Origin: a virus | Virus record (IMG/VR): IMGVR_UViG_3300007540_000127 | Coordinates: 1 to 22,327 of that record | Length of the DNA: 22,327 nucleotides | Strand: one strand, 5' to 3' | Part shown: positions 4,239 through 21,598 of the stretch, piece by piece | Layout: each line of letters opens with the position of its first letter | Position numbering within the stretch: the first letter of the stretch is position 1 | The notes under the pieces: model-generated | What the model was told of the DNA's origin: nothing | Databases searched by the model: none | The model's input: the letters and a program-made list of their open reading frames with translations, nothing else | Program-made: the position numbers and the translations under genes

Positions 4239-4264
4239 GGGGGTCGCAATGACCCCCCTTTTTT
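4239..4264 (+). terminator. rho-independent terminator after the reductase operon
   Basis: A 7-bp perfect stem GGGGGTC / GACCCCC (4239-4245 with 4251-4257), loop GCAAT, followed by one C and six T (4259-4264). This is a textbook intrinsic terminator for the + strand operon. In the other direction the downstream bases are only AAGTTTACTT, so it would be weak for the converging late genes, whose last stop codon (4263-4265) lies in the T tract. Confidence 0.92.
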
Positions 4265-6455
4265 ACTCGCTGGGGACTTGCGCCCCTACAATCATTCCGG
4301 TAATAGCAGCAGTTTTAGGTAGACCTTCAACAAATTTATTGAACAAACCCTTAGATATTTTATCTCCCTTCTGTAATTGAGCGTTCATAGCTTTTGCTAT
4401 ATTTATCTTTTTATCAACTACTTTAGGGTCTATCTGCTTTCGAGCTAGTGTTGAGAAAACAGGATAAAGCAGAGAACTTAAACCAGGGTTACGGATAGCA
4501 CCCAGTTCCGCCCCTCTAACAGCAAGGGACAAAGCAGCTTCAGAACCTTCAATACCCTTAGACATTAAATCTACTTCCTGAGCTAACTTATAAAGTTTAT
4601 CTCCTTTCTCTTTACCCACAATAGCATTGAACGTATCCGAAAACTTACCCAGCTCCATTTTTTGTAGGAAGTTATTAAAGTGTTGAGGCGAGCCAGTCGG
4701 GAACAAGTTGTTAATAAACTCCTTCTCAATAGACTTTATCATATTTTCACCATCTACTGTCACTTTCAACTCTTTAGCTTTTGACATGAGTTTTTTAAGG
4801 TCTTGTACTGCAAGGTTTTCACCAGATTTAACCAAGTATTGACCAATGTCGGCTACGTTATCCTTTTTAAGCGCCTTAGATACCCAACCGCCGTGAATGG
4901 TGTTTATGCCTTCCTTATACAGTCCTGACAAATCCTTATACTTCTCAAGCAACAAAGGGTTAAAATTCTGAGCAGCAGAATCCATAGACTTTGACAGGTC
5001 TGTAATGGCTTCTCCAATTAACTTCTCTGCTTTAGTGTTTTTCTCACCCACCGAACGCTCCATGTCACGTTGCAGAGACTTTAAAGTAGAAAGCTCTGTA
5101 TGTGCTTCCGAGAATGACATATTAGGACGCATACTAGTGAGCTTATTAGCAATAGTTTTGTGCTTACCTAGAATACCTGTAGTACCTTCCTTTGTAATTA
5201 ACTCATCCAAAGCATCCTCGCCCCGTTTAATAGCAGACTGAGGTCGAACAATGTTTTTATTGGTGTTAAAAATTTTCTCCAGATTTCCAGTAGCTATGCT
5301 TAGCATTTTATTAGCTGTGGGGTCGTTCCCGATTCGCCCTTTTAACTCTCGCAGCTCTCTTAACTTCTTGTATACTTCTTTCGGGGACAGCACGGTGTTG
5401 ATGTTATTTACGTTATCTAAAACAGATTTTACTGAAGATGTCTTTTTGCTTTTAGGTAAAGATAGATAAGCACTACGGACTCTGTTTTTTATATTACCTG
5501 TTTTAAGAAAGACAGAACCTTCTTTGTCTATTATCTGATACATAGGAGTAACAATAGCCTTCAAAGCCGTATCACTGTCCTCTACCATCTTTATGAGAGC
5601 TTCGCCTGTTTCTTCTCTCGTTAAATCGTCAGTAGAACGACCAAGTATTTCTTTAAACTGGTCTACGATATATTTGTCTTGAGTTTTTAAAGAGTTTTCG
5701 TACTCCTGCTTCATAAACATGGAAGAAGAGGCGTAGTCTTGTCCTAAACGTCCCGTTTTGCTCTCTGGAACCGCTTGTACGGGCATAAGGCCGCCGCCCT
5801 TCTGCATAAGTTTCTGGTTAAGTTCCGAGGCAAGCCGTAGTTCTTCACCACGCTTCCCTAAGTTCTGTACTACTTCCTGTAGGTACTGTTCACTAAACTC
5901 ACCGGAAGCTATGACATTATCAAGGGTTGTGTCACCACGCTGAATAGCAAGGGCGAGGTCAGTCGCTGCTGCCTCTCCTGTACTGCTAAAGTATTGTGGA
6001 GAGAAAAACTTACTAATGGGCTGATATACTGTCTTCAGTCCCTTACCAAGAATACCAAAACCAGCGCCGAATGCGGCATCTTTAGCTGCTGCTTCTAATG
6101 ATTCTTCCGTTGCTGTGTTAAGGTCGAAGTCTCTGTCCTCAACATATGATTCAGCAAGTTCGCCACTAAAGTAACCAGTTCCTGCGCCTACAGCTCCACC
6201 AAGCAAACCGCCAACAACGGAACCTACTGGCCCAAAAGCTGTACCTAAAGAGGCACCATATAAGGCACCGGCAACGGCACCTCCTGTTTCAGTAACAGTA
6301 GATATGTAGTCGGCTTTAGTTGCTTGGTCTATATTGTAATCCTCTTCCGTGGCTAATCCAGAACCAATAGCATATTGCTTTATTTGTTCTTCTGTAGTCC
6401 CATCAGGTATTCCGTCAATTACTTGTCCTGTGGGTAATGTTTTACTAAAAGACAT
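4263..6455 (-). CDS. putative internal virion/ejection protein with glycine-zipper segment, 730 aa
   Basis: Last gene of the late arm. The N-terminus contains VIDGIPDGTTEEQIKQYA, a short pattern common at the start of phage internal and tail proteins. Residues about 58-99 form a long G/A-rich small-residue segment (GGAVAGALYGASLG, then GSVVGGLLGGAVGAG) like glycine-zipper membrane-inserting helices; a second shorter one lies at about 127-140. The rest, to the end, is helical and charged with many K/E and no enzyme motif I can see. Position after nozzle and two further virion-like proteins matches the ejection-protein genes of podoviruses, which enter the cell ahead of the DNA. ATG at 6455 follows AGGA. 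The role is inferred from position and composition only. Confidence 0.65.
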   Translation of the reverse strand: MSFSKTLPTGQVIDGIPDGTTEEQIKQYAIGSGLATEEDYNIDQATKADYISTVTETGGAVAGALYGASLGTAFGPVGSVVGGLLGGAVGAGTGYFSGELAESYVEDRDFDLNTATEESLEAAAKDAAFGAGFGILGKGLKTVYQPISKFFSPQYFSSTGEAAATDLALAIQRGDTTLDNVIASGEFSEQYLQEVVQNLGKRGEELRLASELNQKLMQKGGGLMPVQAVPESKTGRLGQDYASSSMFMKQEYENSLKTQDKYIVDQFKEILGRSTDDLTREETGEALIKMVEDSDTALKAIVTPMYQIIDKEGSVFLKTGNIKNRVRSAYLSLPKSKKTSSVKSVLDNVNNINTVLSPKEVYKKLRELRELKGRIGNDPTANKMLSIATGNLEKIFNTNKNIVRPQSAIKRGEDALDELITKEGTTGILGKHKTIANKLTSMRPNMSFSEAHTELSTLKSLQRDMERSVGEKNTKAEKLIGEAITDLSKSMDSAAQNFNPLLLEKYKDLSGLYKEGINTIHGGWVSKALKKDNVADIGQYLVKSGENLAVQDLKKLMSKAKELKVTVDGENMIKSIEKEFINNLFPTGSPQHFNNFLQKMELGKFSDTFNAIVGKEKGDKLYKLAQEVDLMSKGIEGSEAALSLAVRGAELGAIRNPGLSSLLYPVFSTLARKQIDPKVVDKKINIAKAMNAQLQKGDKISKGLFNKFVEGLPKTAAITGMIVGAQVPSE

Positions 6456-6469
6456 ATTAAATTCCTATC

Positions 6470-7462
6470 TTATCTGAAGCCTCGTCGAGAAGCTTGTGTA
6501 GGTACGCTTGCGGTTGTTAGCGTATCTGCGGCTACTTGAGCATCCCAAGTCATTGGTTTTTCGGGTATATCGTAGCCGGGAAGATTGTACTGCTGCGCTA
6601 CTTGCTCTGCATACCCTTCACTTTTCTTCAAGTCTTGCCAATGCTGAACAAAACCAGCTTGATTGCCTCTATTATCGTTTAAGTATTTAGCTTTTTCTTT
6701 ATTCCTTTCAGCATTAAACGCAGACATTTTAGCCATGGCTTTAAGGAATCTTTCAATTTCCTTTGCGTTCCAGTCCTTAGTTGGAAAACCTTTTTGAATT
6801 ATAGCAATATCTCGGTCAGAAGCAACACCCGGTGGTAGATTATTGATAATACCAACGGATATTAAGTTATCAAACTCCGTTTTTAAAGAGTCAACTGCGG
6901 TTTGTCCACCTAAAAACTCTTTAGTCGCAGACCAAGTTTTACCGATGACGCCGCCAGTAGGCTTAAAGCGTGCGTATCGTGAGATTAAATTTAAAGCTTT
7001 TGCGGCTTCCCCATCAGCTTTTTCCGCTGCTTCCTCTGCCTCAGCAATTCTTTCATAATCTCCAGCAAGCATTTTACGACCACGAGCTTTTTCCGCTGCA
7101 AGTCTTTCAATCTCTCTTTGTTCTGCCCTTTGTCTATAACCGCTAGATACCTCAGCTTGTCCCATAGCCTGTATCTTAGCAGCCGTCTGAGCAGCACCAG
7201 CGAGGTCACCAGTACCTTGTTGTATCTTAGCCAGCTTCGCTAGGTCTTCCGGTTTATTTAAGTCCAGACCAGCTAACGCTTGACCCATACGTGCTTGGGG
7301 CGAAGGGGCGCCACCACTAGCGACACGACCTAAGCTACCCTGAAGTCGTTGTGCTTGTTGCTGACCAAACATACCACGGAAACCGGGAGTACCGGGTACA
7401 GCAGAAGTAGGCTGTTGTGTGGGAGTAATCTCCGTGAGCATTCTCATTAAATCTTTAGCCAT
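6470..7462 (-). CDS. putative internal virion protein, 330 aa
   Basis: Helix-rich protein rich in A, Q, K and E. The N-terminal about 60 residues are P/G/Q-rich and probably flexible; residues about 105-155 are dense in A, E, K and R and look coiled-coil; the segment NNLPPGVASDRDIAIIQKGFP near 210-230 followed by WNAKEIERFLKAMAKM resembles a conserved patch I recall from structural proteins of marine podoviruses. No catalytic motif. ATG at 7462 is preceded by AAGGAG. It lies 14 bases upstream of the 730-residue protein and 14 bases downstream of the 338-residue protein in one transcription unit, so an ejection or core-protein role is likely but not shown. Confidence 0.62.
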   Translation of the reverse strand: MAKDLMRMLTEITPTQQPTSAVPGTPGFRGMFGQQQAQRLQGSLGRVASGGAPSPQARMGQALAGLDLNKPEDLAKLAKIQQGTGDLAGAAQTAAKIQAMGQAEVSSGYRQRAEQREIERLAAEKARGRKMLAGDYERIAEAEEAAEKADGEAAKALNLISRYARFKPTGGVIGKTWSATKEFLGGQTAVDSLKTEFDNLISVGIINNLPPGVASDRDIAIIQKGFPTKDWNAKEIERFLKAMAKMSAFNAERNKEKAKYLNDNRGNQAGFVQHWQDLKKSEGYAEQVAQQYNLPGYDIPEKPMTWDAQVAADTLTTASVPTQASRRGFR

Positions 7463-7476
7463 TAGGTTTGTCTCCT

Positions 7477-8493
7477 TTATTGTTGAGTTATGTCAAAGTT
7501 ACTACCTAAATCAAGAACATCTTGAATGTCCTGTACTGTATCAGTAGGTGTGTAATTTTCATTAAGTGAAATACCGCCAAACATACCACCAATAACAGGT
7601 AGACCAGAAAGATAGTCTTGTGCGCCGCTAAAAATATTACTAAATATACCATCTTGTCCCGAAGCTAAATCGGGCTGACGTAACGCAGCCGCTGCTATCT
7701 GCTCCTGTAGTGTAGCTTCTCGACCTAACAAACTATCAAGCAAGGAACGCTGCTGTTGTAGTCTCAGCTGGTTAGCTAAGTCTTCAGCCTGTGTACGGGC
7801 TTCAACACCACCTAAACCTAATTCAGCTTGGTACTGTGCGCCAGTTCTACGGCCTACGTCGGCAAACCCGGCAGGAGTAGCTGCGGCACCAAAGAGTCCA
7901 ATAGCCTGCTGTTGTGGCATATAACCAGCACCCAGTAGACCCTGTGCCCCTAGAAGTGATTGCTGTTGTTCAGCCAATGCTTGCTGTCTAGCACCTAAAC
8001 TAGCTCGTGACATAGCTTCCTGTCGTGCAGTCTCCTGTGCCAGTAACTCAGGAGAAGCACCACCGTAAGCAGCGGAGGAAAGACCTAAGCGACCTTGGGA
8101 TAGCATACGCTCTTCTAAAGCTAGACGCTGACGTTCCTCTTCAGGACGCTGTGTAGCTCGAATCTGTTCAAAGATAGCAGCTTGCTGTGCCGCAGGGTCT
8201 TGTCCTACTTGACCAAATAAACCTGCTGCTTGTCCCATTAGCTGCGTTTGTAAAGCCTGTTGCTCAGGAGACAACCCAACGGTTAAACCCCCTTCAGGTG
8301 TTGCTGAAACATCAGCTAAAGTACCTGTGACTGTGTAGGGTTTAAACTGAGTAGCTTCCCCTACCTGTCCTGCAAGTCCTGTAAGGGCTGCCTGCTGCTC
8401 ACGACCTAGCTGTTGAACGTCTTGGATGTTCTCACGTCCTAGGTAGTAATCAGCGCCGGCTCTAGCTGCGTCAGTTAAATCAAATAAACTCAT
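7477..8493 (-). CDS. putative glutamine-rich internal virion protein, 338 aa
   Basis: Protein with strong A/Q/L/G bias. After a start MSLFDLTDAARAGADYYLG, the middle (residues about 75-275) is almost entirely Q-, A-, L- and E-rich predicted helix, with SLLGAQGLLGAGYMPQQQAIGLF near 180-200 typical of phage ejection or tail-core proteins as I remember them. The C-terminal 65 residues are G/N/D-rich with SGLPVIGGMFGGIS. ATG at 8493 shares one base with the stop of the nozzle gene and is preceded by AGGGAGAC. Composition and position next to the nozzle support a virion location; the precise role is unknown. Confidence 0.65.
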   Translation of the reverse strand: MSLFDLTDAARAGADYYLGRENIQDVQQLGREQQAALTGLAGQVGEATQFKPYTVTGTLADVSATPEGGLTVGLSPEQQALQTQLMGQAAGLFGQVGQDPAAQQAAIFEQIRATQRPEEERQRLALEERMLSQGRLGLSSAAYGGASPELLAQETARQEAMSRASLGARQQALAEQQQSLLGAQGLLGAGYMPQQQAIGLFGAAATPAGFADVGRRTGAQYQAELGLGGVEARTQAEDLANQLRLQQQRSLLDSLLGREATLQEQIAAAALRQPDLASGQDGIFSNIFSGAQDYLSGLPVIGGMFGGISLNENYTPTDTVQDIQDVLDLGSNFDITQQ

Positions 8494-10025
8494 TATATTA
8501 GTCTCCCTAATAGAGCGTGTATGTCAATTTTTTGAATAGAGAACTGAGCCTCGTTAATCTCAGCTTCAAGGCCAATCGTCACTACCTCACCGCTACCACT
8601 GGTGTTTACCTTCGGAGTGTTGATAAGAATAGATGAAGTGTATTCACCAGTAGTGTTGTACTCAGCAATGCCGTACTCGGCTAGAGTTCCTGTACCAAAG
8701 ATAAATGCTTGTTTGGTATAATTTTGCGCATAGTCATAGCCCCAGTTAAGAGTTGTGGGCGTGTTTTGACCACCGATAATAGTTAAGTTAAACTTCTTCA
8801 AGAACTTTAGGTTGGACGTATTGCCAAAGTCCAAAGGATTACTAAAGTAACGCATCTCGTACTTCTCAGTCCCGTCTAAGTACCCACTGTACTTTACAAT
8901 ACCGCTGTCTTTACCTATGTAAACAGTACCGTCTTCAAGAACAGTAAACGACAAAGGGTAGAGGCTTGACCAAGTAGTAGCGCGCTGAGAACCATCCTCT
9001 AGTGGTGTTCTCATATCAAAACAATATGCAGTGTTGCTGTCAGGAAGTGTCAACACATAGAAAGCATTGTCAGAACTATACATAGACTTTATAGGATTAC
9101 TTTGTAAAACTACTAATGACATTAAATCAGTACGTACATTCTTACTGATGTCGCGCATAGGTAGGGACTTTTCTTGTATAACCCTTTCGAAACTACGTAC
9201 ACCTGAATTAGACAAAAAGAGAATGTCTTTGCCTGTGTGCTGTACTGAGTCACGAGCGATACAACCAACGCCCTCTACAGTGTCTACAAGGGTCATAGAG
9301 GCCGGAGAAGTAGCACCGGAGTACACCAGTATAGACTTCTTGCCAAAGATGATTAGAAAGCCATTGTGAGCTGCTAAGGCTGTTATCTCATCAAAGCCCG
9401 TAGGCCATACAGTCGTGACATCTAACGAACCTGAAGTACCGCCTGTCCAGTGATGTCCATTTAACAAATCAGACCAGTATACTGTGTGCTTATTACCAGT
9501 AACATCAGCCGCCCAAAGTCTACCGTAAGCTGCTAAAACTTCATTAGCCTCTGGTGGATTACCTGTCGCGTGTGTGTGTGCTGAGTGTTCTTCCAATACA
9601 AAAGAACCCTCGTGGTCGGTGCCAAGCACGTACTCATGGTCTCGTTGGAACAAATACACATGGTCGTTTAGAGTCACAACTTTCCAGTTGTTAGCTGTGG
9701 GAGTGTAACCTGTGGGTGTCGCGTCCGTTAGTGTTGTAGTCCCTGTAAATATTTTGTTGTTACCTGCTGACAGTATATATTTATCGCCGGAAGAATCAAT
9801 GTATTCGTACACTGTTTCAATACCACGGCTAGTCCCTAGTACGGAGGAACCGTTGGTACTGACTTCCTCCCAGCCTTCTCTTGCACCGATACGACCCAGC
9901 TTGTCAATAACACAGTTGTCTGCGATAGACGCAAACGAAGGATTACCGCCAATAGGTGAATCCTCTGTGTTAAGGCCAAAGAATCCCGGTGCTGCTACTG
10001 TAATGTTCTGTAATTGTTGAGCCAT
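8493..10025 (-). CDS. tail nozzle / packaged-DNA stabilisation protein (P22 gp10 or T7 gp12-like)
   Basis: Predicted to close the tail tube under the adaptor and hold packaged DNA. The 510-residue protein starts MAQQLQNITVAAPGFFGLNTEDSP, then SIADNCVIDKLGRIGAREGWEEV, the usual opening of this family in which an early segment gives the sites DN and GxIxxRxG. The remainder is beta-rich with repeated strand pairs (YILSAGNNKIFTG, HVYLFQRDHEYVLG, GFLIIFGKKSILVYSG), consistent with the beta-propeller of nozzle proteins. The block GVRSFERVIQEKSLPMRDIS near 280-300 is a strong family signature in my memory. It starts directly at the stop of the adaptor gene (one-base overlap), the normal adaptor-nozzle pairing. 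Confidence 0.85.
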   Translation of the reverse strand: MAQQLQNITVAAPGFFGLNTEDSPIGGNPSFASIADNCVIDKLGRIGAREGWEEVSTNGSSVLGTSRGIETVYEYIDSSGDKYILSAGNNKIFTGTTTLTDATPTGYTPTANNWKVVTLNDHVYLFQRDHEYVLGTDHEGSFVLEEHSAHTHATGNPPEANEVLAAYGRLWAADVTGNKHTVYWSDLLNGHHWTGGTSGSLDVTTVWPTGFDEITALAAHNGFLIIFGKKSILVYSGATSPASMTLVDTVEGVGCIARDSVQHTGKDILFLSNSGVRSFERVIQEKSLPMRDISKNVRTDLMSLVVLQSNPIKSMYSSDNAFYVLTLPDSNTAYCFDMRTPLEDGSQRATTWSSLYPLSFTVLEDGTVYIGKDSGIVKYSGYLDGTEKYEMRYFSNPLDFGNTSNLKFLKKFNLTIIGGQNTPTTLNWGYDYAQNYTKQAFIFGTGTLAEYGIAEYNTTGEYTSSILINTPKVNTSGSGEVVTIGLEAEINEAQFSIQKIDIHALLGRLI

Positions 10026-10669
10026 TATGAATACCAGATAGTTTCTTCGGGGTGTTTGGCTGAGTCATAAGCAATGGCGTCGGACAAAGAGACATCAGCC
10101 AGAGCAAACAATTCAGCGGCGCTTGTTCCACCAGTTTCTCCACGCTCCCTAGCACCCAACGCTGTAGCCAGTTGAGTCACCGGCAAAGAGGGAACTGTGA
10201 GCTTGTCAGTATCTTCAGTAAAGTTAGCAGTACGTACAGCAGAGTTAAATGTCAAGGTGTACGCTTTGTCTGGGTTAGGATAAATCTCAACAGTGTCATC
10301 ACCATTAGTGTCTACACCTTTGAAGCAATAGTACTGAGGCTTGCCCGACGGTGGAGGAGTTACTAAGTTAGCATTATCCATCCAAGCAGCACCACGGTAT
10401 TGTACAAAGTTCTTAGAAGTCTCATCAACAACGTTAAAGACCTTCAAGTTAGTGCCTGAGCCTGTCAAAGAATATGTAGTAGTGTCAGCAACAAGAGACA
10501 CAGGAAGCTCGGTACGTAATGCAGTCCAGTCGTAAGCGTCCTCTACAGTTCTTTTTGCATCATTAACAAACTCTCCTATCAGTTTAGAGTAGCTGTTCTG
10601 TGCTACAGTGCTTACCTCCTCCTCACGGAGCCGACGCAGTACACTGTTTACTATCTGTAAGTATGTCAT
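10025..10669 (-). CDS. head-tail adaptor / tail tubular protein A-like (T7 gp11, P22 gp4 type)
   Basis: A 214-residue protein that should form the ring between portal and nozzle. It begins MTYLQIVNSVLRRLREEEV, continues with SYSKLIGEFVNDAKRTVEDAYDWTALR, the helical start typical of these adaptors, and then a beta-rich part (TTTYSLTG, KPQYYCFKG, TVEIYPNPDKAYTLTFN) and a helical C-terminus with LATALGARERGETGGTSAAELFALAD. Length and order match the family. ATG at 10669 lies three bases after the stop of the 932-residue gene; the stop overlaps the nozzle ATG. Confidence 0.83.
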   Translation of the reverse strand: MTYLQIVNSVLRRLREEEVSTVAQNSYSKLIGEFVNDAKRTVEDAYDWTALRTELPVSLVADTTTYSLTGSGTNLKVFNVVDETSKNFVQYRGAAWMDNANLVTPPPSGKPQYYCFKGVDTNGDDTVEIYPNPDKAYTLTFNSAVRTANFTEDTDKLTVPSLPVTQLATALGARERGETGGTSAAELFALADVSLSDAIAYDSAKHPEETIWYS

Positions 10670-10672
10670 TAA

Positions 10673-13471
10673 TTAAACCCTTCTTCCTGTTAATAAACCC
10701 TGCGGTCTACGTTGTGTTGCTTGTGTTGGTTGTAAAAACTGTCCTAGTATGTTTGTTTGTGGTAACACAGGTGCCGTTGGAACTTGAGCAACTGGCATTA
10801 GAGGCTGTTGTCCTAGCCTTTGTATCTGTGGAGCTGCTGTTATTTCTGTTTCAAACTGCAACATATCCTTAAACAAAGTGTCCGTAGTTCTTGTACCTGC
10901 TCTCGGTGAAGCCATAAACGAAGGCATGGTTATTTGTGGTAAGTTAAGATTAATATTAGGTAAGTCTATGCTAGGCAAGTCTACGCTTGGTAAGTCTACT
11001 TCAGGTATAGCATCAACTACTGTCTCTACGACATCACCTACAACTTGCCCTGCGTCCTCAACTACATCACCAACAACCTGCGCTACGTCCTCTACAGCCG
11101 CTCCTGTGTCCTGAGCTACGTCTTCAATAATATCACCAGCTGACTGTCCTATGTCTTCCAGAACGTCTCCTGTGACCTGTAGAGCGTCTTCTCCTGCCTG
11201 TAATGCTGGGTCTACAAACTCTTCACCTATGTAGTCTAAAACATCGTCTACGGGGTCTACAACACCTTCTTCAACAGCATCGCCTATGACCTGTGCAACG
11301 TCTTCCACTACATCACCAGTCGTCTGAACTACGTCTTCCGCAACGTCTCCGATGGTCTGTGCAACAGGGTCTACAATCTCTTCGCCCACAAAGTCTAAGA
11401 CATCATCTACAGGGTCTACAACGTAGTCTTCAATAACGTCCCCTACTTCCTGTGCTACATCTTCGGCAGCCTGTATAGCAGGGTCTACGAACTCAGAACC
11501 TACGTAGTCAAGAGCATCATCTATCGGGTCAATAATAACATCTTCGACTACTGCCGCGATAGGTTCTACCGCTTGAAGGATAGGGTCAACCACCTCACTA
11601 CCAAGTAAGTCTAGTATGTCGTCCGCTGGGTCAATGATAACATCCTCGACTACATCGCCAACTACTTGGGCTACGTCTTCGACACCATCAAAGATAGGCT
11701 GTAAAGCGTCTCCTACGTTCTGTACTACTTCCACGATAGGGTCTAAAACGGAAGAAAGGTCACCGACATCTATATCAGGAACACCTCCGAAACCGCCACC
11801 CTCAGTTATGTATTCCACTAAACCGTCTTCCAAAGCGTCTTGAAAGTCCCCGCCTGCTATAGCTGTTTCTAAGGCTGCTTTTGTACCCTCAATAAAGTCA
11901 GGGTCGTTTGCAAGTGCAGGAGGTATACCGATTGCTTCTAAGTTGTCGCTTATCAGAGTATTGCCTTGAAGAGCTAAAGCAGCTCCTAAGACATCTTGGT
12001 CACCGATTGCGCTAATAAGGCTTGTTGTCTGGTTATACGTTAAACCACCTAAACCAATTCCATCTATCATTTCAGTTGCGGATAGCGCACCGTCAAAACC
12101 CATTAATAAGTTATCAGCCATTTGCTGACCGACTGTCCCGCTTAATGGAGAATTAACCCACTCACTACTCATGTCCGTTGGCGGGGTAATAATACCTGCT
12201 TGTTCCAAACCACCAATAACCAGATTAGCGTAATCAGAACCGTGTAGTGTTTCACCTGTTGCTAAACGAATAGCAGAGTAAAGCTGTTCTGATTTACCAC
12301 CTGTGTAGATGGCAGCAAAAGTACGAACCCCGGGAATTAAGAACTCATCACGCCACTCATTCCACGCGCTATATTCTATAGGTGGGATGTCACCTTGTAC
12401 ACGCAGATTGTCATAGTACTGTAACTCATTTACATTTTCTCGATTATACTGAGCTTCTGTTTCTGGAATATAATAAGTATCTTCACTAACAACACTCCAA
12501 GCATTAGGGTCATTAGGGCGGTAAGCTACTAGTGTCGTTTCTCCTTCTCTAACGCCCGCGGCTGGAACATCGGCAGGCGCAGGAGCTTCTATAATATAGT
12601 AAGGATTTTCTGAATCTTTTTGAGATAAATTCCACTCAGAACGCCATGCGCTTTCGTAGTCTTCCTTTTCTATCTCACCTCTTTTTTCTAGCTCCTGTAA
12701 ATAAGACACCCGTAGTCCGAAATCTAACTCTTCATACTTTTCTTGAAAAGCTGACATATCTTCTTTACGAAGATTATCCATAGCGCTTGTAAAGTTTTCT
12801 TTCTTTTCTAAGAAATCTGAAGCAAGTAGTTCACGCCCTTCGTAGATACTTTCATCAGAATCGTACCAATCTCTCGCAGTTTCAGGGTCTACTCCTCTGC
12901 TTATCATTTGATTGTGATAATAAGCTCTTTCATATTCTTCAGGGTCTCCACCTAAACGACGACCCATTGTAGGAAAGGCTGAACCGGAGGCGGCCTGTGT
13001 GATTGCTTGTTGACGGAAAAGTTCTTCACTTGTTTGAAAGTAAAGGTCAGCCATCATTTCGTCATCATATTCTATATAAGGAAGGTAGCTGCTTTCCATC
13101 GCATCGCGCATCATCTCAGGGTCATCTAAGAAATCTACTTTTCCAAGGTCACTTCCTGATATAAATACTTTCGCGAATGAGTCGAAAGGGTCTAAGCTTT
13201 CTCGATAACCCGTGGCTCGTCCTTCTTCTTCTTCTTCTTTTACAGAGGGTTCTCCACGGTATCCTGAGCCAGCTCCATACTCCACAGCAAAGGGGTCAGT
13301 TTCCTCGTCAAACGAACTAGCAAGGCTAACAACTTCTTCGGCACCCACAGGCTGTATTGTGTAGTCAGGTGTAGTTTTTTGTTTAGCTTCCCACGCTGCT
13401 AAGTCTTCTCTGTAGTAACGACTTCTACTGCCGCCACGATAGCGACTTGGGTCTGGTTTAGGTAGTGCCAT
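10673..13471 (-). CDS. large acidic hendecad-repeat virion-associated protein, 932 aa
   Basis: I do not recognise a family with known function. Residues 1-300 are acidic, with several aromatic-rich DDE segments and a five-glutamate run at 79-83; about 360-560 look globular (FAAIYTGGKSEQLYSAIRLA, GLTYNQTTSLISAIG). Residues about 595-822 consist of 11-residue repeats with consensus (V/T)GDVVEDVAQx, interrupted by four copies of VDPxDDxLDxxGxExVDP beginning near 611, 645, 683 and 736. Residues 826-848 carry short VDLPS/IDLPN repeats, and the C-terminus is P/Q/T-rich and basic. From K531 to R857 there is no K, R or H. It lies between the putative holin, which overlaps its ATG by 14 bases, and the tail adaptor, so a virion or ejection role is likely. 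ATG at 13471 follows AAGGGG. Confidence 0.8.
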   Translation of the reverse strand: MALPKPDPSRYRGGSRSRYYREDLAAWEAKQKTTPDYTIQPVGAEEVVSLASSFDEETDPFAVEYGAGSGYRGEPSVKEEEEEGRATGYRESLDPFDSFAKVFISGSDLGKVDFLDDPEMMRDAMESSYLPYIEYDDEMMADLYFQTSEELFRQQAITQAASGSAFPTMGRRLGGDPEEYERAYYHNQMISRGVDPETARDWYDSDESIYEGRELLASDFLEKKENFTSAMDNLRKEDMSAFQEKYEELDFGLRVSYLQELEKRGEIEKEDYESAWRSEWNLSQKDSENPYYIIEAPAPADVPAAGVREGETTLVAYRPNDPNAWSVVSEDTYYIPETEAQYNRENVNELQYYDNLRVQGDIPPIEYSAWNEWRDEFLIPGVRTFAAIYTGGKSEQLYSAIRLATGETLHGSDYANLVIGGLEQAGIITPPTDMSSEWVNSPLSGTVGQQMADNLLMGFDGALSATEMIDGIGLGGLTYNQTTSLISAIGDQDVLGAALALQGNTLISDNLEAIGIPPALANDPDFIEGTKAALETAIAGGDFQDALEDGLVEYITEGGGFGGVPDIDVGDLSSVLDPIVEVVQNVGDALQPIFDGVEDVAQVVGDVVEDVIIDPADDILDLLGSEVVDPILQAVEPIAAVVEDVIIDPIDDALDYVGSEFVDPAIQAAEDVAQEVGDVIEDYVVDPVDDVLDFVGEEIVDPVAQTIGDVAEDVVQTTGDVVEDVAQVIGDAVEEGVVDPVDDVLDYIGEEFVDPALQAGEDALQVTGDVLEDIGQSAGDIIEDVAQDTGAAVEDVAQVVGDVVEDAGQVVGDVVETVVDAIPEVDLPSVDLPSIDLPNINLNLPQITMPSFMASPRAGTRTTDTLFKDMLQFETEITAAPQIQRLGQQPLMPVAQVPTAPVLPQTNILGQFLQPTQATQRRPQGLLTGRRV
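10934..11680 (-). repeat. coding repeats of the 932-aa protein (33-base and 15-base units)
   Basis: Between about 11012 and 11680 the gene is built of 33-base units encoding (V/T)GDVVEDVAQx, clearest as five consecutive units at residues about 768-822, plus four longer VDPxDDxLD modules. Between 10934 and 11000 there is a shorter 15-base period encoding VDLPS, VDLPS, IDLPN. The units differ at the DNA level, so the amino-acid pattern seems to be kept by selection rather than by very recent duplication. Confidence 0.85.
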
Positions 13472-13865
13472 TCTTAACCCCTTTAGTTTTCTCTACTGTA
13501 CGTAACACCCCTAACCCTAACATACCCATAAGAACTGGCATCATTGTTGACAAATCTATAAGGGGAATGTTGACTGAAGAATCGGCCAAAGCCAGCGTAA
13601 AATTTGCCATCGGAATAACCAAGAAGTTACTCGCCATAGAAAGCACGCATACCCAGCCGACAGCCGGACGCCAACCTGCGACAAATAAGTTCCTATGTCC
13701 CGCTTCAGTTTTGTTTACCTCTATCTGTGCCATTGCACTTTCGTGTGCGTATTTCTCTGCCATAGTCGCAACTTCATGGGCAATCTTTTGCTTGGTGTCA
13801 GCATCAGGTATAAACTTGTCAAGTATGCTTGTAACGGGCTGTATTAAAGATTTAAGTATACTCAT
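13458..13865 (-). CDS. putative holin, three-transmembrane type
   Basis: A 135-residue membrane protein. The cytoplasm-side N-terminus MSILKSLIQPVTSILDKFIP is followed by an amphipathic helix (TKQKIAHEVATMAEKYAHE) and the motif EAGHRNLFVAGWRPAVGWVC, which I associate with the Holin_3TMS family (gene-transfer-agent release holins). Hydrophobic stretches: about 61-90 (GWVCVLSMASNFLVIPMANF) and about 106-124 (TMMPVLMGMLGLGVL). ATG at 13865 is chosen over an in-frame GTG at 13874; neither has a Shine-Dalgarno sequence, and a consensus promoter abuts the ATG. The last 14 bases overlap the 932-residue gene. Such proteins make holes in the inner membrane at lysis; that activity is inferred from the family. 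An ordinary virion membrane protein is the alternative. Confidence 0.75.
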   Translation of the reverse strand: MSILKSLIQPVTSILDKFIPDADTKQKIAHEVATMAEKYAHESAMAQIEVNKTEAGHRNLFVAGWRPAVGWVCVLSMASNFLVIPMANFTLALADSSVNIPLIDLSTMMPVLMGMLGLGVLRTVEKTKGVKNGTT

Positions 13866-13894
13866 ATTATACACTATTTAGTCTTGTTTGTCAA
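13866..13894 (-). promoter_or_regulatory. consensus sigma70 promoter abutting the holin start
   Basis: On the - strand TTGACA (13889-13894), a 17-base spacer (13872-13888) and TATAAT (13866-13871): perfect in both boxes. The start point would be near 13859, inside codon 2-3 of the holin-like gene, so the transcript would lack that gene's start codon and would serve the 932-residue, adaptor, nozzle and ejection genes. A GTATAC palindrome lies at 13856-13861, across the expected start point. Confidence 0.8.
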
Positions 13895-14063
13895 GTAGTT
13901 TTTTACCATGAACTAACATTTGTACTGTGTCTGACTCGTATATTCTAATACCCAACCACACTATGGTGAATATAGAGGCGACTGGCGGTAACCAAGCTGC
14001 GAGAGCAAGGATACCTGTTGATGCGGCAGCAACGTCCAAAGCTTCTTTTGTTTCTTCCACCAT
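13878..14063 (-). CDS. small membrane protein, possible second holin or lysis protein, 61 aa
   Basis: Starts MVEETKEALDVAAASTG; the hydrophobic core ILALAAWLPPVASIFTIVWLGIRIY (about 18-42) could form one long or two short membrane helices split by the PP, followed by ESDTVQML and a basic tail HGKKLLDKQD. Small proteins with LAAWLPxxAxxxTIVWxxIRIYE are common beside holins in marine podoviruses in my memory, and are often annotated as holin-like or hypothetical. ATG at 14063 follows AAGGAT. The gene ends 12 bases before the start of the three-helix holin, so the two may form a lysis pair, but no endolysin is seen next to them. Confidence 0.68.
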   Translation of the reverse strand: MVEETKEALDVAAASTGILALAAWLPPVASIFTIVWLGIRIYESDTVQMLVHGKKLLDKQD

Positions 14064-14094
14064 GCTTAAATCCTTATTTTAAGTTTAGGGGGTT

Positions 14095-14412
14095 TTACCA
14101 AGGAACGCCTGCTTCCTGAGTTGGATTTTTTTCAGCGTCAATCTGTGATGCAATAGAAGCTTCGATGCTTTCTACTTGCTCTTCGCCAAGTGAATCTTTA
14201 GTCCAGCCGATAGCCATCTCTTCAGTGATGTCAGCATATGGAACATAGTCAGGTGATGATGGGTCAGGGGTAAAGCCACAAGTGCCATAAGAGCTGCCTG
14301 AGTAAGTTACATCATCTACTACTTCGCTGTCTGATGCTCTCCAGTGGGCTACAATAACTGCGCCGTCTGAGATTTCGTGTTCAAGGGTTGAGATTGTCCA
14401 AGTTACTGCCAT
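14095..14412 (-). CDS. conserved-type small phage protein of unknown function, 105 aa
   Basis: Begins MAVTWTISTLEHEISDGAVIVAHWRASD, then a serine/glycine-rich part (TYSGSSYGTCGFTPDPSSPDY) and a helical acidic C-terminus ending KNPTQEAGVPW. The opening WTISxxE...DGxVxxAHWRxSD and the W-ending tail are features of a protein found next to tail genes in many aquatic phages, according to memory; I believe it has only a domain-of-unknown-function label. One cysteine, no membrane segment. ATG at 14412 is preceded by AAAGGAA. It sits between the tail-assembly-chaperone-like gene and the membrane proteins, so it could be a minor tail or fibre-associated protein. Confidence 0.7.
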   Translation of the reverse strand: MAVTWTISTLEHEISDGAVIVAHWRASDSEVVDDVTYSGSSYGTCGFTPDPSSPDYVPYADITEEMAIGWTKDSLGEEQVESIEASIASQIDAEKNPTQEAGVPW

Positions 14413-14434
14413 TGTTTTATTCCTTTTTGTTTAA

Positions 14435-14887
14435 TTAAGGCGCTGTAGGCCAAGTAATGTTAGTTGGAAATCCTGCTTGTTCCGATATGTCACGTAGCTC
14501 TGTGCGGTAAGTAGCCCAAGAAGCCTTTGTGCTGTCGTCTAAAGGACTGTCGGGCATCTGCGTCCAGTCACATAGGGTCAGTAGCTCATCACGCTCATAA
14601 CGCACGCTAGAGGCTTCTGAGGCTATTTCGTCTGCTGTCTTGTCCCGTACAACCCAAGGCAGTGTCCATACACCTTCTACAAGCACAGGCGCTGAAGCAT
14701 GAACAGCAGTTTCTGTATGCGATATATTTTCTGGAAACTCTCCTCTAACTATTGAAAACACGCCAAAAGAAATTAAGGTTTCTTCGTTTATCTCTAGTGG
14801 GAAAGAAACACCTGAGTTGTCTTTTCGTAATTTTTTTATACTATAGGGAAACTCATCTACAGTGTTATTGATTGTTTTTACGTACAT
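14435..14887 (-). CDS. tail fibre assembly chaperone-like protein, 150 aa
   Basis: The C-terminal about 55 residues fit the phage tail assembly chaperone (Phage_tail_APC-type) pattern: VRYERDELLTLCDWTQMPDSP, then SWATYRTELRDIS, ending FPTNITWPTAP. The N-terminal half (residues 1-95) is a separate beta-rich part with WTLPWVVRDKTADEIA linking the two, common in fibre-associated proteins of marine phages. Such proteins help fibres fold or attach and may also be carried in the particle; the exact role is inferred. ATG at 14887 follows AAGGAT. It is next to the beta-propeller and fibre genes, as expected for a fibre chaperone. Confidence 0.75.
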   Translation of the reverse strand: MYVKTINNTVDEFPYSIKKLRKDNSGVSFPLEINEETLISFGVFSIVRGEFPENISHTETAVHASAPVLVEGVWTLPWVVRDKTADEIASEASSVRYERDELLTLCDWTQMPDSPLDDSTKASWATYRTELRDISEQAGFPTNITWPTAP

Positions 14888-14896
14888 AATAAATCC

Positions 14897-15991
14897 TTAG
14901 TTGTATAAGTGTACTTTAGCGCCTTGATATGCCAAGCTTGAATGGTCAATAGTAGTTTCTAAAGTTAAATTAGATGGGTCAGAGTATTCTATAACTTTAA
15001 CTCCTGCTGGGCTGTAGCTATTACCGTAAGAGTTATATACTCTTTTAGCTCCAGCGTCAATAGCCATACTTTTTCTAAGTGTATCATTAGAGTAGCCGAC
15101 ACCTGTATAGGTATCTAATAAAGTTAAATTAGACGGGTCGCTTACATCAATGCTGGAGATTTTTCCGTATCGGTTAGAAACAAAAGCTATTTCTGCGTCT
15201 ACATCTACCTCTACCGCCATCGCGTAGTCTAAGTTTGTAGTGTCACCGAGGCTATCCAAAAGCACTGCCGCTGTGTCAGTGCTGACATCAATAGCTATAA
15301 TTCTATCGCTGCTAGTTACTGCGTATAAAATATCATTTGCAACATCTAAAAAGGTATCTTGTACATACTGCGCTATAGAGCCGAGTTGTAAATTATCTTT
15401 AAAAACCATAACATTAGTTCCTGTTGGGCTAATGTCAAAAGTACGTAAACTAGAGCTAGTAAAGTAATAAAGCAGCTCTCTTGTGGGATTAACTGTTAGA
15501 CCGTATGTTGCTGACCCGTATTGTAAAAACCACTCTAATGTTACATTTGTCGGGTCGCTATAGTCGTATCTACAATGGCCCTTATTTGATGTAGTGCCAG
15601 ATAAGTTAGCGGTATATGCGAACTCTTTTGAAGGGTCAACAGCTACCCCAGTAACTTGGTCTAACCCAACAGAATTTATTACGGTGTCTGCTACAACTAT
15701 ATTTGTGTCATCGCTCCAATCTGCAATAGCTAAACGGTCAGCATTCCTGTTCGTCACCATAAAAACTTTATTAGTATCATCTACTGCTGTGTACATGTCT
15801 GCCCCGCCAGCGCCGACGTTAAAACCGAAAGCCGAATTATTAAAATAATCAATCTGCGAAGCATCGTCTAAATCATTAAGCAGGGTTGTGCCGCCGCTGC
15901 CTGCTATTGTAAGAAGCTTTGTAAAATCTGGGTCAGGCGTGACTCCAGAATCAGTCTTAGCCTTGATAAGTTTATTAGCTACTGTACTCAT
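14897..15991 (-). CDS. beta-propeller-like tail-tip protein, 364 aa
   Basis: After a 30-residue N-terminus (MSTVANKLIKAKTDSGVTPD...) the protein is made of about six repeat units of 38-45 residues, starting near 68, 115, 164, 212, 257 and 308. Each has the pattern xAVDxxxxxxYxxx..., then xIxxxDxSDPSNLTLLDT. Three units carry YSDPTNVTLE, DVSDPSNLTLL or YSDPSNLTLE. The unit resembles the LVIVD/YVTN-type beta-propeller blades that bind surfaces or sugars. It follows the fibre gene with a TAATG overlap and precedes the chaperone-like gene, so it is probably a host-contact or fibre-tip protein. No signal peptide and no enzyme motif are seen. The fold is inferred from repeat spacing; function is unproven. 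Confidence 0.72.
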   Translation of the reverse strand: MSTVANKLIKAKTDSGVTPDPDFTKLLTIAGSGGTTLLNDLDDASQIDYFNNSAFGFNVGAGGADMYTAVDDTNKVFMVTNRNADRLAIADWSDDTNIVVADTVINSVGLDQVTGVAVDPSKEFAYTANLSGTTSNKGHCRYDYSDPTNVTLEWFLQYGSATYGLTVNPTRELLYYFTSSSLRTFDISPTGTNVMVFKDNLQLGSIAQYVQDTFLDVANDILYAVTSSDRIIAIDVSTDTAAVLLDSLGDTTNLDYAMAVEVDVDAEIAFVSNRYGKISSIDVSDPSNLTLLDTYTGVGYSNDTLRKSMAIDAGAKRVYNSYGNSYSPAGVKVIEYSDPSNLTLETTIDHSSLAYQGAKVHLYN

Positions 15992-18630
15992 TATGCCATC
16001 GCCTGTCCAGCCGTGAAGCCGTAGTAAGTAGTACCACCGTCAATAGTATAGAATACAAACACATCTACACCGCCACTGGTTGCTGTCAAGGTAGGCGCTG
16101 TGCCTCCCGCCCAGTCAACACTAGCAGGCCAAGTAATTGTACGGGCTGTGGTGTCCTGAATAACTTTCAAGGTGAACGCTGTAGCATTGCCTGTGGTTGC
16201 TGGGTTGCTAAAGGTGTAAGTAGTATTGCCTGTGAGGTCATGTACAAAGTTAGTCGCAGTCGCTAGGTCTATAGTAGTTGCCGTGCCTGTAAGGGTTTCT
16301 GCGTCTTCTGTGATAGCTCCTTGTACTGTTAGAGTTCCTGCAACATCTAAAGCACTACCAGGCGAACTAGTACCAATACCCACGTTACCGCTGGAGTCTA
16401 TGCGCATGGCTTCTGTGCCATCAATTCGCCAGCGGTGGATATTAGGACTAGAAGGATGCGAACCACCAAATACTGAATAATTAGCTCCAGAGTTAGTTGC
16501 ATTACCGCCCGACACGGTTATCAAAGAAGTGTCGCTAGTGGGTCTGATGCTGTCTGTATTATCAATACGCACACCGCCAGTATTAGCAATGCCTGATAGG
16601 TGTAGGTCTTTGAAGCGACTATCAGAATGTCCTATGTCAACTGTTGCATCTATATTAGTGCCGCCTTTATGAGGCAATACCGCACTAGTACCAAACTGCA
16701 AACCTGAGTGTGTTGAGTTTCCTTCAATCACTAAATTGTCAGAGTTATCAACACCAACACTACCTACGGTTGTGCCGTCTTTGCGGAACTGTGCGATAGT
16801 GCCATCACTTCCTAATCTATTAAAGATTGCAGAAGGGTTATTGCTTCTAGTTAAAAACGCTACAGAATCTCCACCACCAACATAGTATTCAAACCCTTTT
16901 GTTACACCTAAATCAGAAGAAGTCTTACCCACCAACAGGTTGCCTGATGAGTCTATGCGCATGCGTTCTGTGCTAACTGTATTAAAAACAAGAGGATGGG
17001 AGCTTCGGGTTCCCACCTCACCAGCAAAACCATTGCTAGTTTGTGGTGGCACAATTTCAATCTGCCTTAACCCAGAAGCATCAGTAACTAAAACACCTGA
17101 GTCTGCCGCAGTTGTTAAACTTGATGAAGGCGAACTAGTACCAATACCCAAAGACTCCGCAGACGCATCCCAGAACAACTTAGCCGTTGTGCCTGTGTCC
17201 TCGTAGAAGCTGATGTCTCCGTTGTTGGCGACAAGCATACGATTGACGTTGTTTGTAGTTCCGTTAGAAGTGCTAAACATTAATTGTGAATCATCACCAA
17301 GCGCATCAACTGTGGTAGCGGTAATAGATGCTTTTATCCCTGCTCCGGGTGTAGACGTATCATTGCCATAGAATTGAAGGTCTCCAATAACTGCGCCTGC
17401 GCCTAAACCATTGCCTGTGCTTTCTAGCTTAATTATTGAGCCATCTAGATTGCTAACAGTCAAACCATCCATCGTGGCTGTGCCAGTAACGTCTATGCCT
17501 GTGGATTTTGTTGCTAACTTAGTATTTCCTTGATGCCCTAATCTAATCTCACTAGCAGTTGTTGTTAGCAGGTTTTGACCACTGCCGTTTTTAATAATAG
17601 TCCCTGCATCTGAGTTACCTAAAATTAAATATCCTGTCCCAGCGTCGCTAATATAGCTATTAGACCCATCATGGTAAATCTCTAGGTCATCACCAGCACC
17701 GAACGTAGCCTTGTCGTTGTCGCCGAAGTTAAGGTCGCCTGTCAGCGTACCGCCGGTAGTCATCAAAGCACCAGCGGCTGTTACGTTAGCTGTGTCCGTT
17801 ACGTCTGCACTGGCTTCAATACCATCTAGCTTAGTGTTGTCGGCAGAGGTAAAGTTAATCTCGGTAAGACCGCCATCGCCCACGGTGTATGTAGTATCAG
17901 TCCAAGGAACATTGACAACGGCTTGGTCGTCGCTGTTTAACTGGATACCGTAAGTTCTTGCAGCAGTAGTAGTTACAGCATTAGCAACTACAGTTTGGTC
18001 TGTGTCACTAAACAGCTCAATGCCGCCTAAAGTTGTGTCAGTAGCCACGGGAAGTGCAAAAGAAGTGCTAGTAATTGTAAAGCTAGGATATGTTCCTGAA
18101 ACGGAAGTACCACCAGCGCCTGTCAATGCGACAGTCTGGTCAGGAGCTGTATTAGCAATCTCTCCACCAGCGGACAAGCTAATGCCTGTGCCTGCCGATA
18201 GGGATGCTACAACGTTAGTGGTGTCGGTTACATCTGCACCTGCTTCGATACCGTCGAGCTTTGTGCCGTCTGTGGCTACGTCTCGTCCATCGAAGGTGCT
18301 GTTGGTTGTTATTGCGCCTGTCATCGCTCCACCTGTTCTAGGTAGTGCGGCATCGGCTGTGGTGCCCTGCGCAGCAGTAGCGTAGTCCGTAGAGGCTGTA
18401 GTGGCAGCAGTGCCCAAGCCTAGGGTAGTACGTGCAGCAGAAGCGTTCGCATCGTCAATCAGTGTACCACCAAAAGTCGAAACGGCTGAGGAATTTAGTT
18501 TAGTAGCACTAGCTACAGCTATGTTGTCAAACTCAGTGTTAATCTCCGTCCCTTTAACAATCTTAGCAGGGTTACCAGACGGCAGAGAATCTTTAGCAGC
18601 AAAGTTAGTAGTTTTAATATAATTAGACAT
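15991..18630 (-). CDS. tail fibre protein, 879 aa
   Basis: Large trimeric-type fibre for host recognition. The N-terminus (IKTTNFAAKDSLPSGNPAK, then KGTEINTEFDNIAVASATK) is the particle-anchoring region used by many marine podovirus fibres. The shaft has two TKLDGIEA(G/S)ADVTD elements (near 122 and 265), DDLEIYHDGSNSYI near 315, and two MRIDSSGN elements followed by LLVGKTSS or VGIGTSSP. The C-terminal 90 residues (ATNFVHDLTGNTTYTFSNP...VFYTIDGGTTYYGFTAGQ) form a beta-sandwich seen at the end of other fibres; there is no S74 peptidase domain. Start ATG at 18630; an upstream in-frame TTG at 18633 adds one residue and is not chosen. It lies just after the capsid terminator, so it is probably made at a lower level than the capsid. 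Confidence 0.88.
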   Translation of the reverse strand: MSNYIKTTNFAAKDSLPSGNPAKIVKGTEINTEFDNIAVASATKLNSSAVSTFGGTLIDDANASAARTTLGLGTAATTASTDYATAAQGTTADAALPRTGGAMTGAITTNSTFDGRDVATDGTKLDGIEAGADVTDTTNVVASLSAGTGISLSAGGEIANTAPDQTVALTGAGGTSVSGTYPSFTITSTSFALPVATDTTLGGIELFSDTDQTVVANAVTTTAARTYGIQLNSDDQAVVNVPWTDTTYTVGDGGLTEINFTSADNTKLDGIEASADVTDTANVTAAGALMTTGGTLTGDLNFGDNDKATFGAGDDLEIYHDGSNSYISDAGTGYLILGNSDAGTIIKNGSGQNLLTTTASEIRLGHQGNTKLATKSTGIDVTGTATMDGLTVSNLDGSIIKLESTGNGLGAGAVIGDLQFYGNDTSTPGAGIKASITATTVDALGDDSQLMFSTSNGTTNNVNRMLVANNGDISFYEDTGTTAKLFWDASAESLGIGTSSPSSSLTTAADSGVLVTDASGLRQIEIVPPQTSNGFAGEVGTRSSHPLVFNTVSTERMRIDSSGNLLVGKTSSDLGVTKGFEYYVGGGDSVAFLTRSNNPSAIFNRLGSDGTIAQFRKDGTTVGSVGVDNSDNLVIEGNSTHSGLQFGTSAVLPHKGGTNIDATVDIGHSDSRFKDLHLSGIANTGGVRIDNTDSIRPTSDTSLITVSGGNATNSGANYSVFGGSHPSSPNIHRWRIDGTEAMRIDSSGNVGIGTSSPGSALDVAGTLTVQGAITEDAETLTGTATTIDLATATNFVHDLTGNTTYTFSNPATTGNATAFTLKVIQDTTARTITWPASVDWAGGTAPTLTATSGGVDVFVFYTIDGGTTYYGFTAGQAMA
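16361..17150 (-). repeat. exact repeats inside the fibre gene
   Basis: A 22-base sequence is repeated exactly at 16361-16382 and 17129-17150, coding for GIGTSSP, and a 15-base sequence at 16394-16408 and 16949-16963, coding for MRIDS. They mark repeated shaft modules and could allow deletion, duplication or exchange of fibre segments by recombination. Confidence 0.8.
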
Positions 18631-18668
18631 CAAGAAACCTGTTCAAGTATGAGAGGAGGGGAAAGTAG

Positions 18669-18699
18669 AAAAAGGGACTCCCCTGTTACAGGAAGCCCC
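18669..18699 (-). terminator. rho-independent terminator after the major capsid gene
   Basis: On the - strand, 14 bases past the capsid stop, GGGGCTTCCTG and CAGGGGAGTCCC pair around a TAA loop (18674-18699). The stem has about eleven pairs, including G-T pairs and one bulged A, followed by TTTTTC. The fibre gene begins about 40 bases further on without a visible promoter, so the hairpin is probably leaky and lowers expression of downstream late genes relative to capsid, as with the terminator after gene 10 of T7. Confidence 0.72.
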
Positions 18700-18712
18700 T
18701 CTTGGTTACTAC

Positions 18713-21304: not shown

Positions 21305-21598
21305 CTACCACTTAGCTTTATCAGCCCAATATGCCGCAGACATTTTGCCTTTAGCTATGTTCTTACCATGTCGTGCTTTGAAGCTGGCTCTTTTCTTCTT
21401 CATAGCCTCAGACTCACCTGCTTTAGGCTTACCTGCTGTCTTAGCTCCCTGCTCTCCAAAGCGGATGGTCTTAACCTTGTCACCCTCCTTGGCAACCACT
21501 ACGTGACTCTTCTTAGGATGACCGGGGGTACGTTTCGGCTTATTGTACCCCGCTACGCCTACCCTAGCTAGTCTTGGGTCTGGTTTTTTTGCTGGCAC
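21305..21598 (-). CDS. DUF6321-like basic phage protein, 97 aa
   Basis: Starts at GTG (21598), not ATG: a near-perfect TAAGGAGG (21605-21612) lies six bases upstream, and there is no better start. The protein is strongly basic: MPAKKPDPRLARVGVAGYNK, PKRTPGHPKKSHVVVAKEGD, then KVKTIRFGEQGAKTAGKPKAGESEAMKKKRASFKARHGKN, and AKGKMSAAYWADKAKW at the end. The KPDPRLxRxGVxGxNKPKRTPxHPxKSHVVVAKEGDKxKTIRFG pattern matches a family I know as DUF6321, found beside portal genes in many phages; a virion or DNA-binding role is likely but unshown. It overlaps the preceding small gene by 35 bases. Confidence 0.85.
   Translation of the reverse strand: MPAKKPDPRLARVGVAGYNKPKRTPGHPKKSHVVVAKEGDKVKTIRFGEQGAKTAGKPKAGESEAMKKKRASFKARHGKNIAKGKMSAAYWADKAKW

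Follow-up and report, generated by a model that had tools for sequence, protein, structure and literature searches.

Collagen needs three chains, and coiled-coil and collagen stalks are both already known in phage fibres. The two are combined in the stalk of EPclA, a trimeric fibre of an EHEC phage (PMC3368898). Among coiled coils, an 11/3 periodicity is slightly right-handed, the right-handedness of 15/4 equals in strength the left-handedness of heptads, and 19/5 is found in the stalk of YadA (PMC4786415). Units of 11 residues have also been described in the DNA pilot protein H of phiX174, where three hendecads precede eleven heptads in a decameric tube of solved structure whose lining consists of amide and guanidinium side chains (PMC7354561), and in tape measure proteins, which carry them in tandem and change their copy number (PMC3271669).

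Here we analyse a 932-aa open reading frame (10673..13471, minus strand, as are all parts of it given below) from a 22,327-nt stretch of viral DNA (IMG/VR record IMGVR_UViG_3300007540_000127, positions 1 to 22,327; the window), the source of a hendecad finding made in a sequence-only reading. That reading knew of no characterised phage protein of this make-up, which is wrong as far as the repeat length goes, as phiX174 H (PMC7354561) and the tape measure proteins (PMC3271669) illustrate.

Neighbourhood and repeat region of the rod protein

The gene of the rod protein has a GTA-type holin gene upstream (13458..13874, minus strand; GTA_holin_3TM), whose end overlaps the start of the open reading frame by 14 bases. 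Downstream follow an SU10-type adaptor (10025..10669, minus strand; Pfam SU10_adaptor) and a nozzle or head-closure-like protein (8493..10025, minus strand). The three open reading frames after the nozzle gene (4263-8493) occupy the usual position of ejection proteins, and one of them matches a PHROG whose description says that the phage releases it upon infection. On the opposite side of the rod gene lie the major head protein, a separate tail-fibre gene (15991-18633) and a tail-assembly chaperone. Judged from these assignments the gene order of the window is podovirus-like, and the late-gene position beside holin and tail genes, to which the sequence-only reading had drawn attention, is supported by the neighbours. 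In the ejection-protein position, a 730-aa open reading frame (4263-6455, minus strand) carries, close to the N-terminus, a hydrophobic and Gly-rich stretch (GGAVAGALYGASLGTAFGPVGSVVGGLLGGAVGAGTGY), possibly a membrane-inserting segment; this protein is a better candidate than the rod for part of a conduit. Elsewhere in the window, a 97-aa protein (21305-21598, minus strand) matched phrog_7595, of unknown function, strongly (E 3e-41) and phrog_220 (minor head protein and DNA pilot) weakly (E 9e-7).

By alignment, the rod protein begins with a segment common to close relatives (residues 1-56, 13304..13471; MALPKPDPSRYRGG ... EEVVSLxSxFD), the EEVVSL-like motif of which is present in about half (27/54) of the complete homologs. 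It is followed by a variable N-terminal domain (residues 62-383, 12323..13288) and a central domain (residues 368-432, 12176..12370; ATGGxSExxxSAxxxASGETLHGSDYANLxxxGLExxG). The amphipathic repeat region, or rod, spans residues 568-822 (11006..11770) and is joined by VDLPS-type five-residue repeats (residues 823-850, 10922..11005) to a C-terminal segment (residues 860-932, 10676..10894) that begins TRTTDTLFKDMLQFETEI and is the most constant feature of the locus.

Five consecutive hendecads make up residues 768-822 (11006..11170): GDVLEDIGQSA, GDIIEDVAQDT, GAAVEDVAQVV, GDVVEDAGQVV and GDVVETVVDAI, with units 3 and 5 degenerate. Position by position they hold G; D or A; V, I or A; L, I or V; E; D or T; I, V or A; G, A or V; Q or D; mixed residues; and A, T, V or I. 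The four hydrophobic columns (a/d/e/h) average 3.78, 4.18, 3.78 and 2.8 on the Kyte-Doolittle scale. These five units and their hydrophobic pattern had been noticed from the letters and are confirmed here; lag-11 self-identity across residues 561-830 is 0.274 (z = 7.6 versus composition shuffles). Further units claimed at residues 598-610 and 707-735 were likewise found, at 598-610 and 708-735. In the same region, lags of 15, 19, 22, 34, 38, 49, 53, 72 and 91 were significant as well (z 4.0-6.3), and lag 7 was present but weaker (z 4.0), whereas the scan of residues 1-560 gave no comparable peak (best z 3.0, at another lag). All of these lags other than 7 fit an integral number of helical turns if a turn takes 3.67-3.80 residues (11/3, 15/4, 19/5 and their sums). 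The array is therefore a mixed one with 11-, 15- and 19-residue spacing and not one of pure hendecads. The hendecad array that the earlier reading had placed at 11012-11680 is thus real as a repeat, but it forms part of one longer region, residues 568-822. The second unit in this region, (V/I)DPxDDxLDxxG(S/E)ExVDP, occurs four times with a DP-DP spacing of exactly 15 residues (residues 613-630, 647-664, 685-702 and 738-755; 11582..11635, 11480..11533, 11366..11419 and 11207..11260).

The hydrophobic moment of residues 568-822 reached 1.21, compared with 0.48 +/- 0.06 in shuffles, and peaked at 95.5 degrees per residue; that of residues 758-822 peaked at 98.5 degrees. There was little 3.5-residue power (0.29 at 103 degrees versus 1.21 at the peak). 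These angles are calibrated on synthetic repeats only, where 7-, 11- and 15-mers gave 103, 98 and 96 degrees; phiX174 H, used as a positive control, failed (heptads peaked at 96.5 and hendecads at 101.5 degrees), its segments being short and polar. With about 3.67-3.80 residues per turn, the region has the periodicity expected of right-handed coiled coils. Its composition is extreme: among 255 residues there are no Lys, no Arg, no Trp and few Phe, and 72 Asp and Glu give a net charge of -72. The whole rod protein carries -14.9 charges per 100 residues, as against -6.6 to +2.1 for ten other measured window proteins.

Rod classes and unit-wise length change among relatives

We searched IMG/VR for stretches carrying the nozzle protein and found 536 related ones, of which the best 80, with a nozzle 82-100% identical to that of the window, were kept. 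Two nozzle relatives sit in binned metagenome contigs of unrelated lineages, most likely as binning artefacts, and therefore give no host assignment. In the relatives kept, the upstream gene, where complete, is an open reading frame of 529-994 residues at the same place. It is a mosaic. L004-L007 match the window in the first 62 residues and in most of the protein after residue 383, with the block between replaced; the same variable domain is also block-replaced in L008/L009. L028 and L095 match only in the first ~64 residues and in the DNA from about residue 905-923 onward, and both carry collagen-like rods. In L004, L028 and L095 the DNA identity to the window stops near residue 62-65.

The sequences that take the place of the rod include (GID/GVD)n(GEQ)n collagen-like arrays, (PVDV)n, (TGT)n, (DTT)n and (DPVV)n. 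By thresholds of our own, we assigned 42 non-redundant complete proteins to classes. Of these, 25 were helical, with a rod peak at 95-99.5 degrees (3.6-3.8 residues per turn; z 7-28), seven were collagen-like, with Gly-X-Y runs of 45-153 residues, and seven had Thr/Gly/Pro/Ala-rich rods; the remaining three were unclassified, two of them just under the z threshold. Three of the collagen-like proteins (L041, L064 and L095) peaked at 120 degrees, that is, 3 residues, and both L083 and L037 have a collagen run plus a helix-like segment. The central domain (residues 368-432) is recognisable in both the helical and the collagen class, and L095 and L037 match tail-fibre PHROGs via their collagen part. 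At the level of sequence, the helical rod that had been predicted is thus borne out as a right-handed coiled-coil periodicity kept in 25 of the 42 homologs. The sequence-only reading had also named homologs in which the 11-residue spacing is not kept as evidence that would count against it; up to 17 of the 42 are of this kind, while the other 25 keep the helix periodicity. That the spacing is missing in part of the family is the most informative result.

Behind every type of rod stands the same C-terminus. T(R/A)TT(D/N)xLF, in this form or as a variant, is present in 72/72 sequences, and in 42/42 non-redundant complete proteins it falls inside the last 130 residues, the motif search for this classification having been restricted to the C-terminus. 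A more distant relative, L109, has an Ala/Gly-rich low-complexity protein ending NDSIFRTDL... at the place of the rod gene, which we take for a degenerate version of the layout seen in the other relatives.

Several further features of the locus were observed. Whatever the rod type, the 200-residue stretch that precedes the C-terminal motif is acidic in 67/67 sequences (median 7 Lys+Arg versus 39 Asp+Glu). Upstream of the adaptor, L028, L041, L064 and L095 carry long (GID/GVD)n plus (GEQ)n collagen-like arrays, the (GID/GVD)n part of which is almost without Pro and Lys/Arg. The stretch from the major head protein to the adaptor (10673-18700), which holds the tail fibre, a 364-aa open reading frame, the chaperone, the holins and the rod protein, appears far more variable than adaptor and nozzle in L014, L037, L048, L064 and L078; it looks like a host-interaction-like island enclosing conserved holin genes.

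Within the rod protein, residues 568-822 are under the strongest purifying selection: in the comparison with L003, the rod has a dN/dS of 0.083, lower than that of any other part of the protein (0.18-0.26). Length changes were found in the same region. L002, ~99% identical elsewhere, is without exactly one hendecad (33 bases; ~residues 797-807, 11051..11083), and this unit lies in the only recent period-33 tandem DNA repeat (11024-11092, TRF). L003 has ten extra VDLPS-type residues relative to the window protein. The missing hendecad, the extra VDLPS residues and the low dN/dS together indicate that length changes by units while the residues are held. Most of the C-terminal part of the repeat array is missing from L008/L009, and the VDLPS/IDLP repeats (10922-11005, minus strand), which are period-15 tandem DNA, vary in copy number among relatives.

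Structure prediction and competing explanations

AlphaFold2, run as monomer, predicted the full rod protein (with 31 homologs) at a mean pLDDT of 47 and a pTM of 0.35, with the rod as long helices (pLDDT about 25-45) and no fold for the C-terminal 80 residues. The rod alone was modelled as two near-continuous helices (residues 569-734 and 741-821; pLDDT mostly about 35-54, pTM 0.22). This output agrees with a helical rod and proves nothing; a continuous one, at 0.15 nm for each of its roughly 250 residues, would reach ~38 nm. Foldseek with the full-length model gave nothing significant against the PDB and viral models, and tblastn, queried with the window protein and also with two of its divergent relatives, recovered no rod-protein homolog in the annotated phage collection searched, the single weak match being to the repeat only. 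For the window protein, Pfam produced neither a match above cut-off nor a known fibre domain; a Collagen_mid match was below cut-off and on the helical region, and was set aside. We also rejected the results of the PDB sequence search, which were only designed helical proteins (E 0.49-0.57; E 0.045-0.67 in the profile version), and the matches to PHROG tape measure families, which we judged to be repeat-driven.

The right-handed amphipathic helix is kept across divergent members, the rod is swapped as a block for collagen-like and other simple sequence ahead of a constant C-terminus at a fixed place among tail genes, collagen consists of three chains, and EHEC phage fibres unite both stalk types in one trimeric stalk; on these grounds we favour an exchangeable stalk, probably of a trimeric appendage. 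Tentatively, and with close to an even chance of being right, we propose that the rod protein is a structural protein of the virion, in a marine phage with a short tail an appendage of the fibre or spacer type, with residues 568-822 as its exchangeable stalk. The region would form an extended right-handed alpha-helical coiled coil, one of several cassettes (hendecad/pentadecad helix, collagen-like Gly-X-Y, Thr/Gly/Pro/Ala-rich) that precede the constant C-terminal segment. The cassettes are swapped as blocks by recombination, and their length shifts by whole repeat units. The repeat with its conserved periodicity, the swapping, the unit-wise length change, the constant C-terminus and the gene context are observations; from them we infer the coiled-coil assembly, the location in the virion, a role in adsorption and the particle-attached end, and the trimeric state from the collagen-like homologs only. 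Since a separate tail-fibre gene is present at 15991-18633, the rod protein need not be the receptor-binding fibre. The very low AlphaFold2 confidence in the rod (pLDDT about 25-54, monomer) counts against a stalk, as do the negative searches for a fold match and for a fibre domain. In a stalk without a positive charge in 255 residues, charge repulsion would have to be screened, and the Gly in each unit and the DP pairs may act as helix breakers.

The same low pLDDT suits the main rival, in which the variable region is an acidic, low-complexity spacer that is flexible for the most part, with length and charge as the targets of selection and a periodicity that reflects no more than a transient helix. 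Such a spacer would also fit the acidic stretch before the C-terminal motif, shared by all 67 sequences with 200 residues there, and the Thr/Gly/Pro/Ala-rich replacements in other members. However, a structureless linker would not be expected to show a strong and consistent periodicity of 95-99.5 degrees in 25 divergent members, nor to change length by whole hendecads at a dN/dS of 0.083, and we regard this explanation as unlikely, if a serious one. A helix lying on the membrane surface, as in lipid-binding proteins with 11-mer repeats, had been raised in the earlier reading and shares the high hydrophobic moment and the 11-residue spacing. The composition speaks against it: the 255 residues with a net charge of -72 have no Lys or Arg, and hence no basic residues beside the hydrophobic face, and the best 19-residue mean hydrophobicity, 1.23, is too low for a transmembrane segment. 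We give this idea very little credence.

The sequence-only reading had further proposed that the rod could be part of an ejection conduit, for which its chains would have to assemble as a helical barrel or a needle. There are precedents in the three hendecads of the DNA-translocating tube of phiX174 H (PMC7354561) and in the coiled-coil needles of short-tailed phages (SU10, PMC9509320), and the rod gene directly precedes the adaptor and nozzle genes. Yet the classification left 17 of the 42 homologs outside the helical class, and their collagen-like or other simple-sequence rods could hardly line a DNA tube; the net charge of -72 without Lys or Arg is also at odds with the amide and guanidinium lining of the phiX174 tube (PMC7354561). 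Ejection-protein candidates lie elsewhere, at 4263-8493, among them the one with the released-on-infection match, and the gene numbering of SU10 puts the needle (gp18) right after the nozzle (gp17), whereas the rod gene precedes adaptor and nozzle. We thus consider a conduit improbable. Tape measure families gave the best PHROG matches, with E values down to 2.6e-11, and every one of these matches centres on the repeat region; repeats of 11 residues are also known from tape measure proteins (PMC3271669). A tape measure protein or similar ruler would, however, sit oddly beside a podovirus adaptor and nozzle; no gene for a long-tail tube was recognised in the window, which is a fragment, or in L078, residues 568-822, with few Phe and not a single Trp, lack the W/F markers of such repeats, and the collagen-like homologs would be left unexplained. 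We give this reading almost no chance of being correct. A lysis protein such as a spanin, considered since the gene follows that of the holin, was rejected, having neither a hydrophobic segment nor a lysis domain to its credit and giving no reason for the collagen-like homologs.

The locus may also say something about selection, a broader claim that we hold with rather more doubt than conviction. In a widespread group of marine podoviruses, rods of unlike physical make-up (a right-handed coiled coil, a collagen-like triple helix and other acidic simple-sequence rods) would be swapped at a core locus before a constant C-terminal anchor, with selection keeping extension, right-handedness and negative charge, not sequence.

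Comparison with described systems

The tail module of HMO-2011-type marine podoviruses resembles that of the window. The window adaptor is homologous to HMO-2011 gp45, and the window nozzle matches a PHROG named amidase, which is the label of gp44 at the matching place; a rod-protein homolog was not detectable in HMO-2011. A tail needle of the P22/SU10 type would be a coiled coil with a C-terminal tip, encoded directly after the nozzle gene; the rod gene sits before the adaptor, and its product has no predicted fold in the C-terminal 80 residues. With tape measure repeats the rod shares tandem 11-residue units and changes in copy number, but neither the Trp/Phe markers nor the long tails of these proteins (PMC3271669) were seen for it. 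Like phiX174 H (PMC7354561), it has consecutive hendecads suggestive of a long helical coiled coil; unlike H, it has little heptad signal and no Lys/Arg. The stalk of YadA-type trimeric autotransporters (PMC4786415) is likewise long, with a right-handed periodicity of more than 3.63 residues per turn, up to 19/5; YadA, however, is a bacterial outer-membrane adhesin with a beta-barrel anchor, and no homology to the rod protein was detected.

A close parallel is with EPclA and EPclB of an EHEC prophage (PMC3368898), which have fibre-type stalks of coiled coil and collagen whose length varies by whole units. The rod family, at the level of sequence, has the same properties: coiled-coil and/or collagen stalks and unit-wise length change. 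The EPcl coiled coil is heptad-like and Ala/Ser-rich, whereas the repeat described here has 11 or 15 residues and is Val/Asp-rich, and EPcl proteins have PfN and PfC domains, families of which Pfam found no match in the window protein or among 31 relatives. In EPcl, helix and collagen follow one another in a single chain; here they are alternatives at one locus, except possibly in L083 and L037. If the rod protein is indeed a virion fibre, a large unannotated protein of marine podoviruses would gain a functional meaning, and the locus would amount to a natural experiment on what a stalk needs, namely length, stiffness and charge rather than sequence. At this single gene position, next to a nozzle that stays 82-100% identical, one stalk architecture replaces another.
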